Assembly: GCF_035917235.1 (NCBI RefSeq)
Contig: NZ_CP108423.1
Span: 4,095,001 to 4,159,000, forward strand
From: Streptomyces sp. NBC_01294
GTDB taxonomy: Bacteria > Actinomycetota > Actinomycetes > Streptomycetales > Streptomycetaceae
Reading direction: 5' to 3'
DNA length: 64,000 bases
Both the position numbers and the translations under genes were made by a program. Position 1 is the stretch's first letter. Each line of letters starts with the position of its first letter. This document shows, one piece after another, positions 9,465 to 16,509 of this stretch. The notes under the pieces are model-generated. The model did no database searches. It was given only the letters and a program-made list of their open reading frames with translations, and was not told the DNA's origin.

Positions 9465-11387
<1,923 letters not shown>

Positions 11388-11561: not shown

Positions 11562-11578
11562 GTCCGATAAGTGGACTT
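11562..11578 (+). promoter_or_regulatory. 17-bp element upstream of collagen-like gene 1
   Basis: GTCCGATAAGTGGACTT occurs here, 102 bp before the gene, and again exactly at 14519-14535 upstream of the second collagen-like gene. Its ends GTCC/GGAC form an inverted repeat. The inner CCGATAA resembles the -10 of sigma-WhiG promoters (GCCGATAA), but no TAAA-type -35 is seen 15 nt upstream. Confidence 0.6.
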
Positions 11579-11679
11579 TCCCGCGAGGTGTCCCGCCACT
11601 TTCGGCAACGGTTCCCAGGCTGTCCGATGTGGCCAAAGAGGCCCACACCATCGTTCGATCAGATTCGAGAAGGAGTGGA

Positions 11680-13068
11680 ATGCGCCCCGAGAACAGGACC
11701 AGGTCAACCCTTGGCCCGCTGCCGAGGAGCGGTTGGCGCAAGGGTGGCACGCTCGCGTCGCTCGCCCTGGTGATGATGGGAGTCGCCAGCCCCGCCATCG
11801 CCGTGGCCCAGAACGTTCAGGCGGCCGAGCGCGTGCACGCGGCGAGCCTCACGGCTGAGAACCCGTGCAAGCCTGGGCAGCATCACCGTCCGGACCACAA
11901 CCCGGACCAGGGTCCGGACTTCAACCCGGACCATGACCCGAACTTCAACCCGGACCATGGTCCGGACGACGGCCCGAGGGTCGCGGGCATCGAGGCCGGG
12001 CCCACCGGTCTCGACAGGTGTGAGGAGGGCAGGCCGGGCCCGACAGGACCGACGGGTGCCACCGGCGCTACCGGCGCCACGGGTGCTGACGGCCTCGACG
12101 GGGCTGACGGTGCGACCGGCGCCACCGGTGCCACGGGTACGGACGGCGCCGACGGTGCGACGGGTGCTGACGGCGCCACAGGTGCCACGGGTGCCGACGG
12201 CGCGACCGGTGCCACGGGTGCCGACGGCGCGACGGGCGCCACCGGTACGGACGGCGCAGATGGCGCTACGGGCGCGACAGGTGCCGACGGCGCCGACGGT
12301 GCTACGGGTGCCACGGGTGCCGACGGTGCGACCGGTGCCACGGGTGCCGACGGTGCTGACGGTGCGACGGGCGCGACGGGTACGGACGGCGCGGACGGTG
12401 CCACGGGTGCCACCGGCGCGCCGGGTACGGACGGCGCGGACGGTGCCACCGGCGCGACGGGCGCGCCGGGTACGGATGGTGCGGACGGTGCCACCGGCGC
12501 GACGGGCGCGCCGGGTACGGATGGTGCGGACGGTGCCACCGGCGCGACGGGCGCGCCGGGTACGGATGGTGCGGACGGTGCCACCGGCGCGACGGGCGCG
12601 CCGGGTACGGATGGTGCGGACGGTGCCACCGGCGCGACGGGCGCTACCGGTGCCACCGGTGCCACCGGCGCGACGGGCACTGGGCCCTGCGACGACATCG
12701 ACAGCTTCGCGCCTTCGATCACCGAGTCGTTCAGTGCCGCTCTGACGAACGGCATCGCCTACGTCGGCCGCGCGACCACGGCCGGAGGTGTGCCTGTCTG
12801 GCAGAACATCACGGACGATGACAACCCGGGCTTCCCCTTCGGCCTGGCCTGCGGCATCACGATCATCGAGCAGGGCCCGAACTCCTACGTCCAGGTCGTG
12901 ACCACGGACGGCAGGACCTACCAGACCCACGGCGACACCCTCCTGAACAACTTCGTCTGGGACGAGGAGTGGATCGAACTGCTCCCCGCCCCGACTCCCC
13001 CGGCTCTCCGGGGCAAGGAGTTCAAGGGAGACCTGATGCGCGGAGCCATGCGCAACCTCATCCCCTAG
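11680..13068 (+). CDS. Secreted collagen-like protein 1
   Basis: The product has 462 residues. A signal peptide covers about 1-45 ([25 protein letters not shown]). A polar linker follows with [12 protein letters not shown] and [18 protein letters not shown] repeats. About 73 uninterrupted Gly-X-Y triplets occupy residues 117-335, mostly GAT and GAD with GTD, and five copies of a 15-residue unit. The C-terminal domain of about 125 residues begins at C337 and resembles nothing I recognise; a related one ends collagen-like protein 2. Such triplets form triple helices, and threonines in GxT triplets are known glycosylation sites in Bacillus BclA. The ATG at 11680 has AAGGAG at 11670-11675. Confidence 0.9.
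12421..12645. repeat. Five tandem copies of a 45-bp coding repeat
   Basis: Units begin at 12421, 12466, 12511, 12556 and 12601, each encoding five Gly-X-Y triplets. Units 2, 3 and 4 are identical at every base; the others differ at few positions. Such identity in a synonymous-rich region indicates recent expansion. Confidence 0.92.
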
Positions 13069-13125
13069 GGAAGCCCGCTCTGGACGGCGTGCCGGCACGC
13101 CGAAATCCGGGATCGTGACGTCGGT

Positions 13126-13157
13126 CCGGGCGGATCACCGGTTGGGGATCCGCCCGG
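13126..13157 (+). terminator. Hairpin downstream of collagen-like gene 1
   Basis: CCGGGCGGATC (13126-13136) pairs perfectly with GATCCGCCCGG (13147-13157) across a 10-nt loop, 58 bp after the stop codon. Confidence 0.6.
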
Positions 13158-13193
13158 CTCCGGCCGACGGACGCGTCGGCCCGGCGTAACGAA

Positions 13194-13239
13194 CGGAGGG
13201 CGCCGCTCCACGGCCTGTCGGCCGGGGCGGCGCCCTCCG
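13194..13239. terminator. Second, longer hairpin between convergent genes
   Basis: CGGAGGGCGCCGC (13194-13206) pairs with GCGGCGCCCTCCG (13227-13239), 13 bp, 21 bp from the end of the glycosyltransferase gene. It probably terminates that minus-strand gene and may act in both directions. Confidence 0.7.
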
Positions 13240-13260
13240 TCGCGTGCGGGGGAGCGGCGG

Positions 13261-14382
13261 TCAGGCGACCACCTGGTACTGCGGATCCAGCTTGCGCCGG
13301 GCGAAGGCGAGGTTCTCGCCGACCCGCTCGCGCTGGCTCTCGGGAAGCGCGCCCTCCCGCAGCAGCCGCTCGCAGCAGTCCAGCGACTCCTGGTACTCGC
13401 CGACCCAGTAGGCGGCCACCGCGAGTTCGTCGAGCGCGCGCCACTCGTACCAGTCGAACTCGACGAACAGGATGTCGTCCGGCCGCGGGATCCGCACCGC
13501 CTGGCGCGCGAACATGTACGCCAGCGGCCAGCGCCCCTCGGTCCGGCAGAGGCGGGCGAGGTCACCGAGCGATTCGGCCCGCGAGGGACGGCTCTCGTGT
13601 GCGCGGAGGTAGCGGTCCATCACCTCGGCCGCCGGCTTCTTCAGGCGCGACGCGATCCGTGCCGCGTAGAGCTGGGAGCAGAAGGCCTCCTCGGCGAATC
13701 CGCCCATGCCCGCCCGGACGTCGTAGGCGGCGAGGGACTTCTCCGGTTCTCCCGCGTCGCGCCAGCTCTGCGCCAGATAAAACGCGTAGCGGGCATTGTC
13801 GGGTTCCTTCAGCAGCCCTTGTTCGAGAATCCCCGCGTCGCGCAGGTACTTTTCCCGTTCGCTGCCGTCACGGTGGCGGGCTCCCCCGCCGACGATGAGG
13901 ATATGGGCGCCTTCGAGCACTCCGCGGCTGAAGCGGGTTTCGCAATCGAGGTACTCGTGGAGCACGCCGACGTATTTCCAGGGCAATCGGGTGGAGACCA
14001 GGGCGGGCCGCCAGTGGATGACGGGTGCGTGGTGCACCGCCACGCTGTACGCGTCGTGAGTGAGCTCCGGCATGCGAAACCCGGGATCCACCTCCATCAC
14101 GTCGTCGGCGTCGAGGAAGAGCAGGTAGTCCGCGGTGGAGCGGGCGAGGTCGATCGCTTCGCTGCGGCTGCCGTCGAATCCCTTCCAGGGTCGTTCGTGC
14201 AGAACACCGGGCAGATCGCCGAAGAATTCCCGGATGATGTCCTGGGTGCCGTCCGTGGAGCCCGTGTCCACGATCACCCACGTGTCGATCAAAGGCCGCA
14301 CCGATTCGAGGCAGCGCCGGATCACCGGAGCCTCGTTCTTGACGATCATGTTCAGGCAGACTTTTGCTTTCAAGGGTCCCAT
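13261..14382 (-). CDS. Family-2 glycosyltransferase with helical-repeat C-terminus
   Basis: The product has 373 residues. The GT-A fold is shown by CLNMIVKNEAPVIRRCLESV, VDTGSTDGTQDII and the metal-binding DADD (LLFLDADDVMEVD). The C-terminal half is alpha-helical with TPR-like pairs (YAFYLAQSWRDAGEPEKSLAAYD). No membrane segment is seen, so it acts in the cytoplasm. It lies between two collagen-like genes, convergent with the first and divergent from the second, which suggests but does not prove that they are its acceptors. The ATG at 14382 lacks a strong ribosome site; a TTG four codons later is an alternative. Confidence 0.85.
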   Translation of the reverse strand: MGPLKAKVCLNMIVKNEAPVIRRCLESVRPLIDTWVIVDTGSTDGTQDIIREFFGDLPGVLHERPWKGFDGSRSEAIDLARSTADYLLFLDADDVMEVDPGFRMPELTHDAYSVAVHHAPVIHWRPALVSTRLPWKYVGVLHEYLDCETRFSRGVLEGAHILIVGGGARHRDGSEREKYLRDAGILEQGLLKEPDNARYAFYLAQSWRDAGEPEKSLAAYDVRAGMGGFAEEAFCSQLYAARIASRLKKPAAEVMDRYLRAHESRPSRAESLGDLARLCRTEGRWPLAYMFARQAVRIPRPDDILFVEFDWYEWRALDELAVAAYWVGEYQESLDCCERLLREGALPESQRERVGENLAFARRKLDPQYQVVA

Positions 14383-14518
14383 CCACTGTGGTGATGAAGA
14401 TGACCGTGAAAACGACGGTAGGGATCCGGGTAATGCCGTGCAAGGAAGCTCGACCGCAAAGGCAGAGGCCGGGCCGCGTCCGTTACTGCAGGTTCCGCCA
14501 ACGGGGGCTCACTCGCTG

Positions 14519-14535
14519 GTCCGATAAGTGGACTT
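14519..14535 (+). promoter_or_regulatory. 17-bp element upstream of collagen-like gene 2
   Basis: This is an exact second copy of GTCCGATAAGTGGACTT, 110 bp before the collagen-like gene 2 start and within the divergent promoter region shared with the glycosyltransferase gene. A second shared block (CATCGTTCGATC, then TTCGAGAAGGAG) lies just before both start codons. Confidence 0.6.
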
Positions 14536-14644
14536 ACGCGCGCGGCGACCGGCTGCCCGCGACCACGATCCCCACGATGGCCGAGGTGGCCAGTCCGGCC
14601 CCATCGCACATCGTTCGATCCGGTTTCGAGAAGGAGCGGCGTAT

Positions 14645-15562
14645 ATGAGCCCCGAGAACAGGACCAAGTCCACTCTTGGTCCGCTGCCCAGGCGCAGCAG
14701 CTGGCTGGCCGGCGGCACCCTCGCCTCGCTGGCCCTGGTGATGGTGGGCATCTCCAGTCCCGCATTCGCTGCGGCCGAGAGCATTCAGGCGGCCGAGACG
14801 GTCACGGCGGCGAGTCCCACGGGCGGCGGGGACAAGTGCAAGCCGCACAAGAAGCCCAAGCACGATCCGAGAGAGGAGCGCAGCGCGGCCGGCCCGCAGG
14901 GCGGCGGCGGTGACGAATGCGAGGGCAAGCGGGGCCCGACGGGCCCCCGGGGTCCGAAGGGCAAGCCGGGCGAGGACGGCATCGACGGTGCCGACGGTGC
15001 GACTGGAGCCACCGGTGCCCCGGGTGCCGATGGTGCGACGGGCGCGACGGGTGCTCCGGGTGTCGACGGTGCGACGGGCGCGACGGGTGCTCCGGGTGCC
15101 GATGGTGCGACGGGCGCGACCGGAGCCACTGGGGTGTCCGAATGCGTGGACATCGACGCCGTGTGGGACAACAACGCCCGCGAGTTCAGGGCGGCGCTCC
15201 CGGGCGACACCAACGCGTACGCGGGTATCCGCCGGCTCACGGGTCCGAACGCGGGAACGTGGCTCTGGTACGACCTCACGACCAATGACGCGGGCCAGTT
15301 CCCGGATGGCGCCTGCAGCATCTCCATCGGCCACCAGGCCAACGTGCTGGCGATCGACGTGGTGACGACGGAGGGTGTCATCTGGGAGACCTCCTGCGAC
15401 GTCAACCCGGGTGACGGCACGCTCACCTGTGATGGCGTGTGGTCGCCCCTCACCTCACAGCCCGAGGAGGGCGACCCGAACCTGCGCCGAGCCGCCGCCA
15501 CGGCGCCGGTCCGCCCGATGGACCCCAACCACCTGCCGAAGCAGCTGAAGCAGCTGAAGTAG
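14645..15562 (+). CDS. Secreted collagen-like protein 2
   Basis: The product has 305 residues and is a paralogue of collagen-like protein 1: both begin with PENRT(R/K)STLGPLPR, share the signal peptide core [11 protein letters not shown], and have QAAE just after cleavage. A basic linker ([12 protein letters not shown]) precedes about 23 Gly-X-Y triplets at residues 94-164, starting [19 protein letters not shown]. The C-terminal domain starts [20 protein letters not shown], echoing [19 protein letters not shown] of the paralogue. The ATG at 14645 is preceded by AAGGAG. Confidence 0.9.
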
Positions 15563-15577
15563 GGCGCGCGACCGGAT

Positions 15578-16390
15578 CTACTCCGGCCGGTGTTCCGGGC
15601 CGCCGAAGTCCGGACTCGTGAAGTCCGGAGGCGTGTAGCCGGGACGGGGTCCCTGTGAAGGGGATCCCGGGCTGGTGAAATCGGGCCGGGTGTATCCCAG
15701 GTTGGGGATGCGCCCGGCCCCTGGCGTGCGGGGGGTCGGGAAGCCCGGTCCCGCACTCGGATCGGCCAGCGCGTCCCGCAGGAACGGCACGATGCCGCGC
15801 TCCAGCAGGGCGTGCCGCCAGGCCTCCCGGGCCCGTGCCACCTCGTCGGGTATCGCCTCGGTCTCGTCCGCCACCACCTCGGTCGCGCTGTTGCGGACGG
15901 CCGTCACCAGCAGCCCGATCACGGCGAAGAGCAGGGCGGCCACGGTGAGCGCTCCGAAGAGCCAACCCGCCGTCAGCATGGTCTTGGCGAAGGCCGGTTC
16001 GGGCTCGATCATCTTCAGGCTGTAGCCGACGAGCAGGAAGATCAGCATGGCGGTGCCGGCCAGGACCGGTGCGAGGACCGCGACCACGGCGCTGATGCCC
16101 GCGCCGCCGCCGTTGTCCTGTCCGCCGTCCTCGTCCCCCGTCCTGCCGGGCGTGGACAGCACCTCGTCGCGTCGTTCCTCGCGGACCTTCACGTAGTGCC
16201 CGTACTCGGCGGCGGCCGCGGCGGCGAGCAGCGCGCTGGCCCCCTGGGCCATGGTGCGCAGCTGTTCGGCGTTCAGCCGTTCGCCCAGGGTGGCGAGTTC
16301 GGGCCGCTCGTGCGCGGCGCGCAGCGCCTCGTCGATGAGCCGATCGAACTCCGGCCGGTCTTCGGTCAGCAGGTGCGGAGCGCTGGTCAT
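15578..16390 (-). CDS. Membrane protein with C-terminal GYTxPDFTSP repeats
   Basis: The product has 270 residues. The N-terminal helical region is polar (about 1-85). Two membrane helices follow (ISAVVAVLAPVLAGTAMLIFLLVGYSL and MLTAGWLFGALTVAALLFAVIGLLVTAV), then a soluble region and a tail rich in Pro, Gly and Thr in which GYT(R/P)PDFTSP is repeated. I recognise no family. The ATG at 16390 is supported by GGGGG six bases upstream. It is convergent with collagen-like gene 2 with a 15-bp gap. Confidence 0.75.
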   Translation of the reverse strand: MTSAPHLLTEDRPEFDRLIDEALRAAHERPELATLGERLNAEQLRTMAQGASALLAAAAAAEYGHYVKVREERRDEVLSTPGRTGDEDGGQDNGGGAGISAVVAVLAPVLAGTAMLIFLLVGYSLKMIEPEPAFAKTMLTAGWLFGALTVAALLFAVIGLLVTAVRNSATEVVADETEAIPDEVARAREAWRHALLERGIVPFLRDALADPSAGPGFPTPRTPGAGRIPNLGYTRPDFTSPGSPSQGPRPGYTPPDFTSPDFGGPEHRPE

Positions 16391-16509
16391 GTGCATCCCC
16401 CGATGCTCCGTGGAAGCCGGTATGCCCGCGTAGACCCGGGCGCCGGCACAAACGGAGGAGAGCCTGCTACGGATAGAGCGATGGTAGAGCGCCCACAGCA
16501 CGCCGTGAC

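Follow-up and report, generated by a model that had tools for sequence, protein, structure and literature searches.

Does a glycosyltransferase that is encoded between two genes for collagen-like proteins act on these proteins? The question is raised by a locus of Streptomyces sp. NBC_01294, located at positions 11,562 to 15,562 of the stretch analysed here (64,000 nucleotides of contig NZ_CP108423.1, positions 4,095,001 to 4,159,000 of the forward strand; this stretch is called the window, and all coordinates are given in it). The genes C1 (11680-13068, plus strand) and C2 (14645-15562, plus strand) flank the glycosyltransferase gene (GT, 13261-14382, minus strand), which is convergent with C1 and divergent from C2. 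Our results suggest that GT is a dedicated protein O-glycosyltransferase with the collagens C1 and C2 as its sugar-stabilised substrates, and we put the probability of this reading at roughly 70%. The anatomy of the locus, the conserved linkage, the co-occurrence in genomes and the fold kinship of the enzyme speak for it.

Two collagen-like proteins and a glycosyltransferase

Open reading frames (ORFs), Pfam matches and reading of the translations confirmed that two secreted collagen-like proteins flank a family-2 glycosyltransferase. C1 has 462 amino acids and contains 73 uninterrupted Gly-X-Y triplets (residues 117-335; 12028-12684, plus strand); Ala occupies X in 60 of these, and the Y residues are 39 Thr, 27 Asp, 6 Pro and 1 Gly. 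C2 has 305 amino acids and contains 24 uninterrupted triplets (residues 94-165; 14924-15139, plus strand), with Thr at Y in 10 and Asp in 6. A reading made earlier from the sequence alone (the sequence-only reading) had counted 73 and about 23 triplets; the first number stands, the second becomes 24, and the richness in threonine that it described is borne out at the Y positions. Both proteins matched the Pfam family Collagen (PF01391) above its cut-off of 27.2 bits (C1, E 3.7e-34, 116.7 bits; C2, E 2.5e-11, 43.6 bits).

The two proteins are also related outside the repeat, as had been claimed. Their signal-peptide regions resemble each other, with a long n-region preceding the hydrophobic core in both. 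Cysteines precede the repeat at positions 63 and 114 of C1 and 65 and 92 of C2, and a further cysteine just past it (Cys337 in C1, Cys167 in C2) opens a C-terminal head domain of one and the same family (12688-13065 in C1 and 15143-15559 in C2, both plus strand; 28% identical). By reading, an LPXTG sortase end is absent from C1 and C2, in agreement with the sequence-only reading, and the Scl-type LPXTG adhesin families stayed below their cut-offs (SclB, 95 of 325 bits; SclA, 78 of 400 bits).

GT has 373 amino acids and consists of a GT-A family 2 domain and a TPR-like helical C-terminal half. The former was matched by Pfam Glycos_transf_2 (E 2.9e-15); the latter is predicted by the AlphaFold2 model (predicted local distance difference test score, pLDDT, 91), the Pfam TPR matches falling short of the cut-off. 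Among solved structures, GmaR (1.4e-12, residues 3-99) and SunS (5.5e-9) were the relatives by sequence. When the model was searched with Foldseek, SunS and ThuS came out best (E 4.5e-16 and 3.4e-14), followed by TPR structures including O-GlcNAc transferase. Judged by its model, GT is kin by fold to peptide glycosyltransferases. On the NCBI family of SunS S-glycosyltransferases (TIGR04195) it scored 37.8 bits, where 350 are required. Neither a signal peptide was seen nor a membrane segment predicted in GT by reading. The GT profile at E 1e-20 matched at least 7785 database proteins among 7999 scored candidates; the 120 matches listed carried the names glycosyltransferase, TPR or hypothetical protein, or no name.

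Linkage of the enzyme to collagens

To place the locus in the genus, 295 genomes sampled evenly over Streptomyces were searched, and a GT match (E 1e-40) was found in 67 of them. By identity to the window GT the matches fall into clade A (about 66-85%) and clade B (40-46%). Together with the window, 70 places in other Streptomyces genomes gave 71 loci (28 A, 43 B), which were read over about 6 kb on each side, less at contig ends. A Gly-X-Y frame (score of at least 8; distances run from the stop-to-stop frame to GT) was present within about 6 kb in 60 of the 71 loci (23 A, 37 B) and within 600 bp in 43 (8 A, 35 B); in clade A the collagen is in some cases 2-5 kb away. The nearest frame was divergent from GT in 46 loci. 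With a stricter measure, an ORF with at least 10 uninterrupted Gly-X-Y triplets, 57 of the 70 other loci were positive versus none of 20 random regions (20 kb each, from 20 GT-bearing genomes). In a tree of 88 enzymes, clades A and B formed separate, well-supported groups, each with 17 rows, and the Nocardioidaceae grouped with clade A; the collagen link is thus seen in two separate GT lineages of Streptomyces. In the nearest linked collagens within 3 kb, the median fraction of Thr at Y was 0.63 in clade A (20 collagens) and 0.70 in clade B (37 collagens).

The arrangement of the window itself is rare. Collagens within 600 bp on both sides of GT were found in only 2 of the 71 loci (the window and L062), so that the trio C1-GT-C2, whose co-occurrence over Streptomyces the sequence-only reading had proposed to look for, was rejected as a conserved unit. 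Most often a single collagen gene is paired divergently with GT. Several copies of GT were seen in some genomes: a tandem pair and a third copy in G016, three in G212, and several including fragments in G144. At locus L088 (G046), GT is broken (two pieces, a stop) and the divergent head-domain partner has no Gly-X-Y repeat; this single case is possibly a joint decay of enzyme and repeat, or an assembly fault.

PF01391 was uninformative as a collagen marker, for it matched 256 of the 295 genomes, and many of the top matches that were opened were GNPGNP or GLPGLP repeats matching on both strands. Collagen presence was therefore judged by a head-domain profile, built from 41 head domains, and by ORF reading. 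The head profile matched 71 of the 295 genomes. GT and head occurred together in 54 genomes, head alone in 17, GT alone in 13 and neither in 211 (odds ratio 52, p 1.8e-31, uncorrected for kinship). The case that would have spoken against a link, an enzyme found mostly in genomes without the collagens, was not observed: the head domain is present in 54 of the 67 GT genomes, besides the Gly-X-Y frame at 60 of the 71 loci.

The repeats of head-domain collagens away from GT were also compared. The 17 GT-free genomes with a head contain 19 head places, of which 18 were read; a repeat of score at least 8 was found in 4 of them, with Thr at Y in 2/17, 1/10, 0/9 and 7/14, and two of the 18 (in G082 and G291) look like chance matches. 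When six of the GT-free genomes were searched with the profile at E 1e-10, G128 and four others had no GT match and G167 had a fragment of 48 positions. In GT-bearing genomes, unlinked head-domain collagens had a median Thr fraction of 0.29 (15 of 27 such places), and several of them use charged repeats of the GPKGDR or GEKGER type. Because the linked medians are 0.63 and 0.70 versus 0.29 for the unlinked collagens, and the GT-free repeats are mostly poor in Thr, these sequences fit a dependence of Thr-rich, proline-poor repeats on GT, the numbers being small.

Outside Streptomyces, species genomes were scanned by GT similarity alone; the best 80 of 526 matches gave 79 loci, of which 44 lie outside the genus, with flanks of up to 5 kb that are often shortened by contig ends. 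A Gly-X-Y frame (score at least 8) was present in 30 of the 44 (24 within 600 bp, 6 farther away) and absent from 14. By record title the 30 loci belong to Pseudomonadota, Myxococcota, Verrucomicrobiota, Planctomycetota, Acidobacteriota and Nocardioidaceae, with one locus each for Verrucomicrobiota, Planctomycetota and Acidobacteriota; many of them come from metagenome bins and may be mislabelled. The Thr fraction at Y had a median of 0.67 and a minimum of 0.32, and the nearest collagen was tandem in 22 loci, convergent in 7 and divergent in 1. Random regions outside Streptomyces, all from one other actinobacterium, contained a Gly-X-Y repeat in 0 of 3. The Streptomyces head domain was found in 0 of the 44 loci. 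Since the partners across these groups share only the Gly-X-Y repeat, the comparison of sequences indicates that the repeat is likely the substrate.

Head domain, leaders and upstream elements

The head is predicted to form two four-stranded beta-propeller blades. This comes from the predicted structure and not from the sequence, because a sequence repeat within the head did not rise above shuffles: aligning its two halves with hhalign gave a score of 9.6, inside the range of 30 column shuffles (highest 11.1). The structure-search matches listed for the head are beta-propellers, although other folds remain compatible, and no TNF/C1q-like chain was among them, with the same reservation. Searching solved sequences with the head profile gave nothing credible (best E 0.27). 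The lectin RSL of Ralstonia solanacearum may share the predicted fold of the head, which was modelled as a single chain, with about 10% identity and no sequence-profile match. On the model, a trimer of two-blade heads might close a six-bladed propeller. By reading, the tails of head-domain proteins, C1 and C2 among them, are of two recurring types, N..P-K..LK-like or NGGTVVP-like, which are possibly a feature of attachment or export. The sole collagen at L063 (G199) combines a C2-like n-region with a head that is nearer to the C1 head (64% identity), as though the C1 and C2 paralogues had recombined.

The n-region before the signal peptide is conserved as MSPExRTxSxLGPLPR in 53 ORFs at 47 of the 71 GT loci, including both collagens of the window (11680-11740 and 14645-14710), and might be a docking site for GT. 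One of these ORFs (L114 12472) looks spurious, and at L120 the n-region and a Gly-X-Y repeat go with a different C-terminal domain. Near-identical tandem units lie within the C1 repeat DNA (12390-12640), and the repeats of partner collagens range from 8 to 242 triplets, which suggests that repeat length changes fast.

The upstream regions of C1 and C2 are 73% identical across about 150 bases, and no third copy was found in the genome at E 0.01. Both contain the element GTCCGATAAGTGGACTT, at 11562-11578 (plus strand, 118 bases 5' of the C1 ATG) and at 14519-14535 (plus strand, 126 bases 5' of the C2 ATG). With up to 3 mismatches these were its only two matches in the window, where 0.03 are expected, and its 15-base core (at most 1 change) recurred in L062, L063 and L076, where it lies 118-127 bases upstream of partner genes. 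The three genes are flanked by thiC (9600-11387) and by an ORF on the minus strand (15578-16501) without any family over the cut-off.

Mechanism, rival explanations and known systems

That GT modifies the collagens, as the sequence-only reading proposed, appears well supported by the conserved adjacency, the co-occurrence in genomes and the precedent of SgtA and BclA3 described below; the earlier interpretation as a whole was partly supported and, on balance, largely strengthened. In the mechanism that we propose, GT would work in the cytoplasm, where its GT-A domain would take a nucleotide sugar and the TPR helices would hold the repetitive chain. A sugar, beta-GlcNAc by analogy, would be added to the Y-position Thr of Gly-X-Thr. 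C1 and C2 would be exported through their signal peptides after glycosylation, and three chains would be brought into register and locked by their heads together with the cysteines on either side of the repeat. The sugars would then stabilise a triple helix with almost no proline, in the role of hydroxyproline in animal collagen, and the result would be a rod outside the cell, glycosylated and topped by a propeller-like head. We infer the acceptor residue, the sugar, the timing before export, the trimer, the stabilisation and the cell location. Because the same collagen-GT pairing exists in many unrelated bacteria, sugars may give bacterial collagens the cohesion that hydroxyproline gives those of animals. 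A wider version, in which the TPR-GT2 enzyme is a collagen-directed O-glycosyltransferase in at least six phyla, Gly-X-Thr glycosylation commonly replaces hydroxyproline and the Streptomyces substrates carry a new kind of trimerising head, three two-blade chains closing a six-bladed propeller above the triple helix, is tentative, and we would give it somewhat less than even odds.

Several observations weigh against a dedicated enzyme and substrate. No Gly-X-Y frame of score 8 was found near GT in 11 of the 71 Streptomyces loci, and one of the 60 positive loci (L087, GGPGPPGRP.. without Thr) looks spurious. A second set, of named Streptomyces loci that partly coincide with the first (flanks of at most 5 kb), had such a frame in 25 of 35. 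Of the nearest linked collagens within 3 kb, 57 in all, 6 have Thr at less than 20% of Y, and GPQ/GAQ collagens with almost no Thr at Y occur near some clade A enzymes. In G128 a head-domain collagen rich in Thr (7/14) is encoded in a genome that gave no GT match. When 246 genomes of the class were searched for other actinobacteria with the enzyme, 10 GT loci were found in 7 genomes outside Streptomyces; only 3 of these loci had a Gly-X-Y frame, one of them without Thr. The GT family is not exclusively linked to collagens and has other substrates too, because some relatives adjoin flagellar genes. Moreover, chains that receive their sugars in the cytoplasm are hard to export through the general route, a problem known from serine-rich adhesins.

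Two of these groups were looked at more closely. The GPQ/GAQ collagens (L075, L077, L083, L084, L085 and L086) have another leader and another C-terminal domain. The flagellar neighbours were seen by reading at four Holophagaceae loci without collagen (L230, L233, L240 and L241); Pfam confirmed FliM, FliN and a sigma factor among the neighbours at L230, the locus so checked. These relatives are perhaps flagellin-directed members.

General O-mannosylation is the main rival for the glycan: the collagens would be O-mannosylated extracellularly by the general Pmt of Streptomyces, and GT would only extend the glycan or act elsewhere. Many secreted Streptomyces proteins are O-mannosylated, with up to three hexoses, according to excerpts of PMC6593405, and the PMT family is over its cut-off in this genome, with a model that also matches 8 of 14 control genomes and so is not specific to Pmt. 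However, this leaves unexplained that GT, and no Pmt, adjoins Thr-rich collagens in other phyla, and GT would not reach secreted chains because it has no predicted membrane segment. We consider this explanation unlikely.

It is quite improbable that GT glycosylates the Thr/Ser- and Asn-bearing spacer or the head instead of the Gly-X-Y repeat, for example as a mark for export or attachment. The n-region leader and the head domain are indeed conserved in the partners, and a few linked collagens are almost free of Thr at Y, but the 44 loci outside Streptomyces keep the Thr-rich repeat and lack the head, and SgtA acts on the repeat (excerpts of PMC7157674). Weakest, and highly improbable, is that GT serves to build or modify a polysaccharide of the cell surface and that the collagen link reflects a shared surface role and co-inheritance: family 2 enzymes make many polysaccharides, and many Streptomyces loci may stem from few ancestral arrangements, so that kinship inflates the linkage counts, yet gene order varies (divergent in Streptomyces, tandem or convergent elsewhere), the other domains of the partners differ, two distant Streptomyces GT lineages are both linked, the structure of GT is closest to peptide glycosyltransferases, and no further glycosyltransferase was noted among the window genes read beside the collagen-GT pair.

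If the family of GT does modify collagens, both in Streptomyces and in other phyla, sugar-stabilised collagen would be a widespread bacterial material, and the enzyme-substrate pairs could be used for glycosylated recombinant collagen. The reason why bacterial collagens prefer Thr at Y would become directly testable, and Streptomyces would gain a candidate for an extracellular fibre, together with a specific enzyme whose gene can be deleted.

Bacterial collagens are mostly unglycosylated, with few exceptions, according to a review (PMC8968730). Among the open-access papers that our searches listed, no title or opening of an abstract described a collagen-GT pair in Streptomyces or across phyla, nor did we find this type of head there. 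SunS and ThuS are the closest solved structures of GT; they are glycocin S-glycosyltransferases and, unlike GT in our reading, modify a Cys of a small peptide. GmaR, which we take to be a flagellar glycosyltransferase/antirepressor, is the best solved relative by sequence, with a likeness confined to the glycosyltransferase domain; it works on flagella, not on collagen. BclA of Bacillus depends on other genes for its placement on the spore, and its head is TNF-like, in contrast to the propeller blades predicted for the present heads. It is alike in being a collagen-like surface protein with a C-terminal head and a glycosylated repeat (PMC8968730).

The closest parallel is from C. difficile, and the collagen-GT pair is of a kind already known there. 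SgtA (GT-A and four TPRs, 358 amino acids) is encoded directly upstream of bclA3 and adds beta-O-GlcNAc to Thr of BclA3 collagen-repeat peptides, Ser also being accepted, as stated in the excerpts of PMC7157674. GT is likened to it by the published domain layout and gene position, not by sequence: the combination of GT2 and TPRs in about 360 amino acids, the gene beside a collagen-like gene and the Thr in the repeat are shared. Two features of an SgtA-type pair, the GT2 and TPR layout and the conserved adjacency to a Thr-bearing collagen gene, were found here. The systems differ in that the present one occurs in Streptomyces and other phyla, uses Sec-type signal peptides, has a different head and, in the window, has two collagens for one GT.

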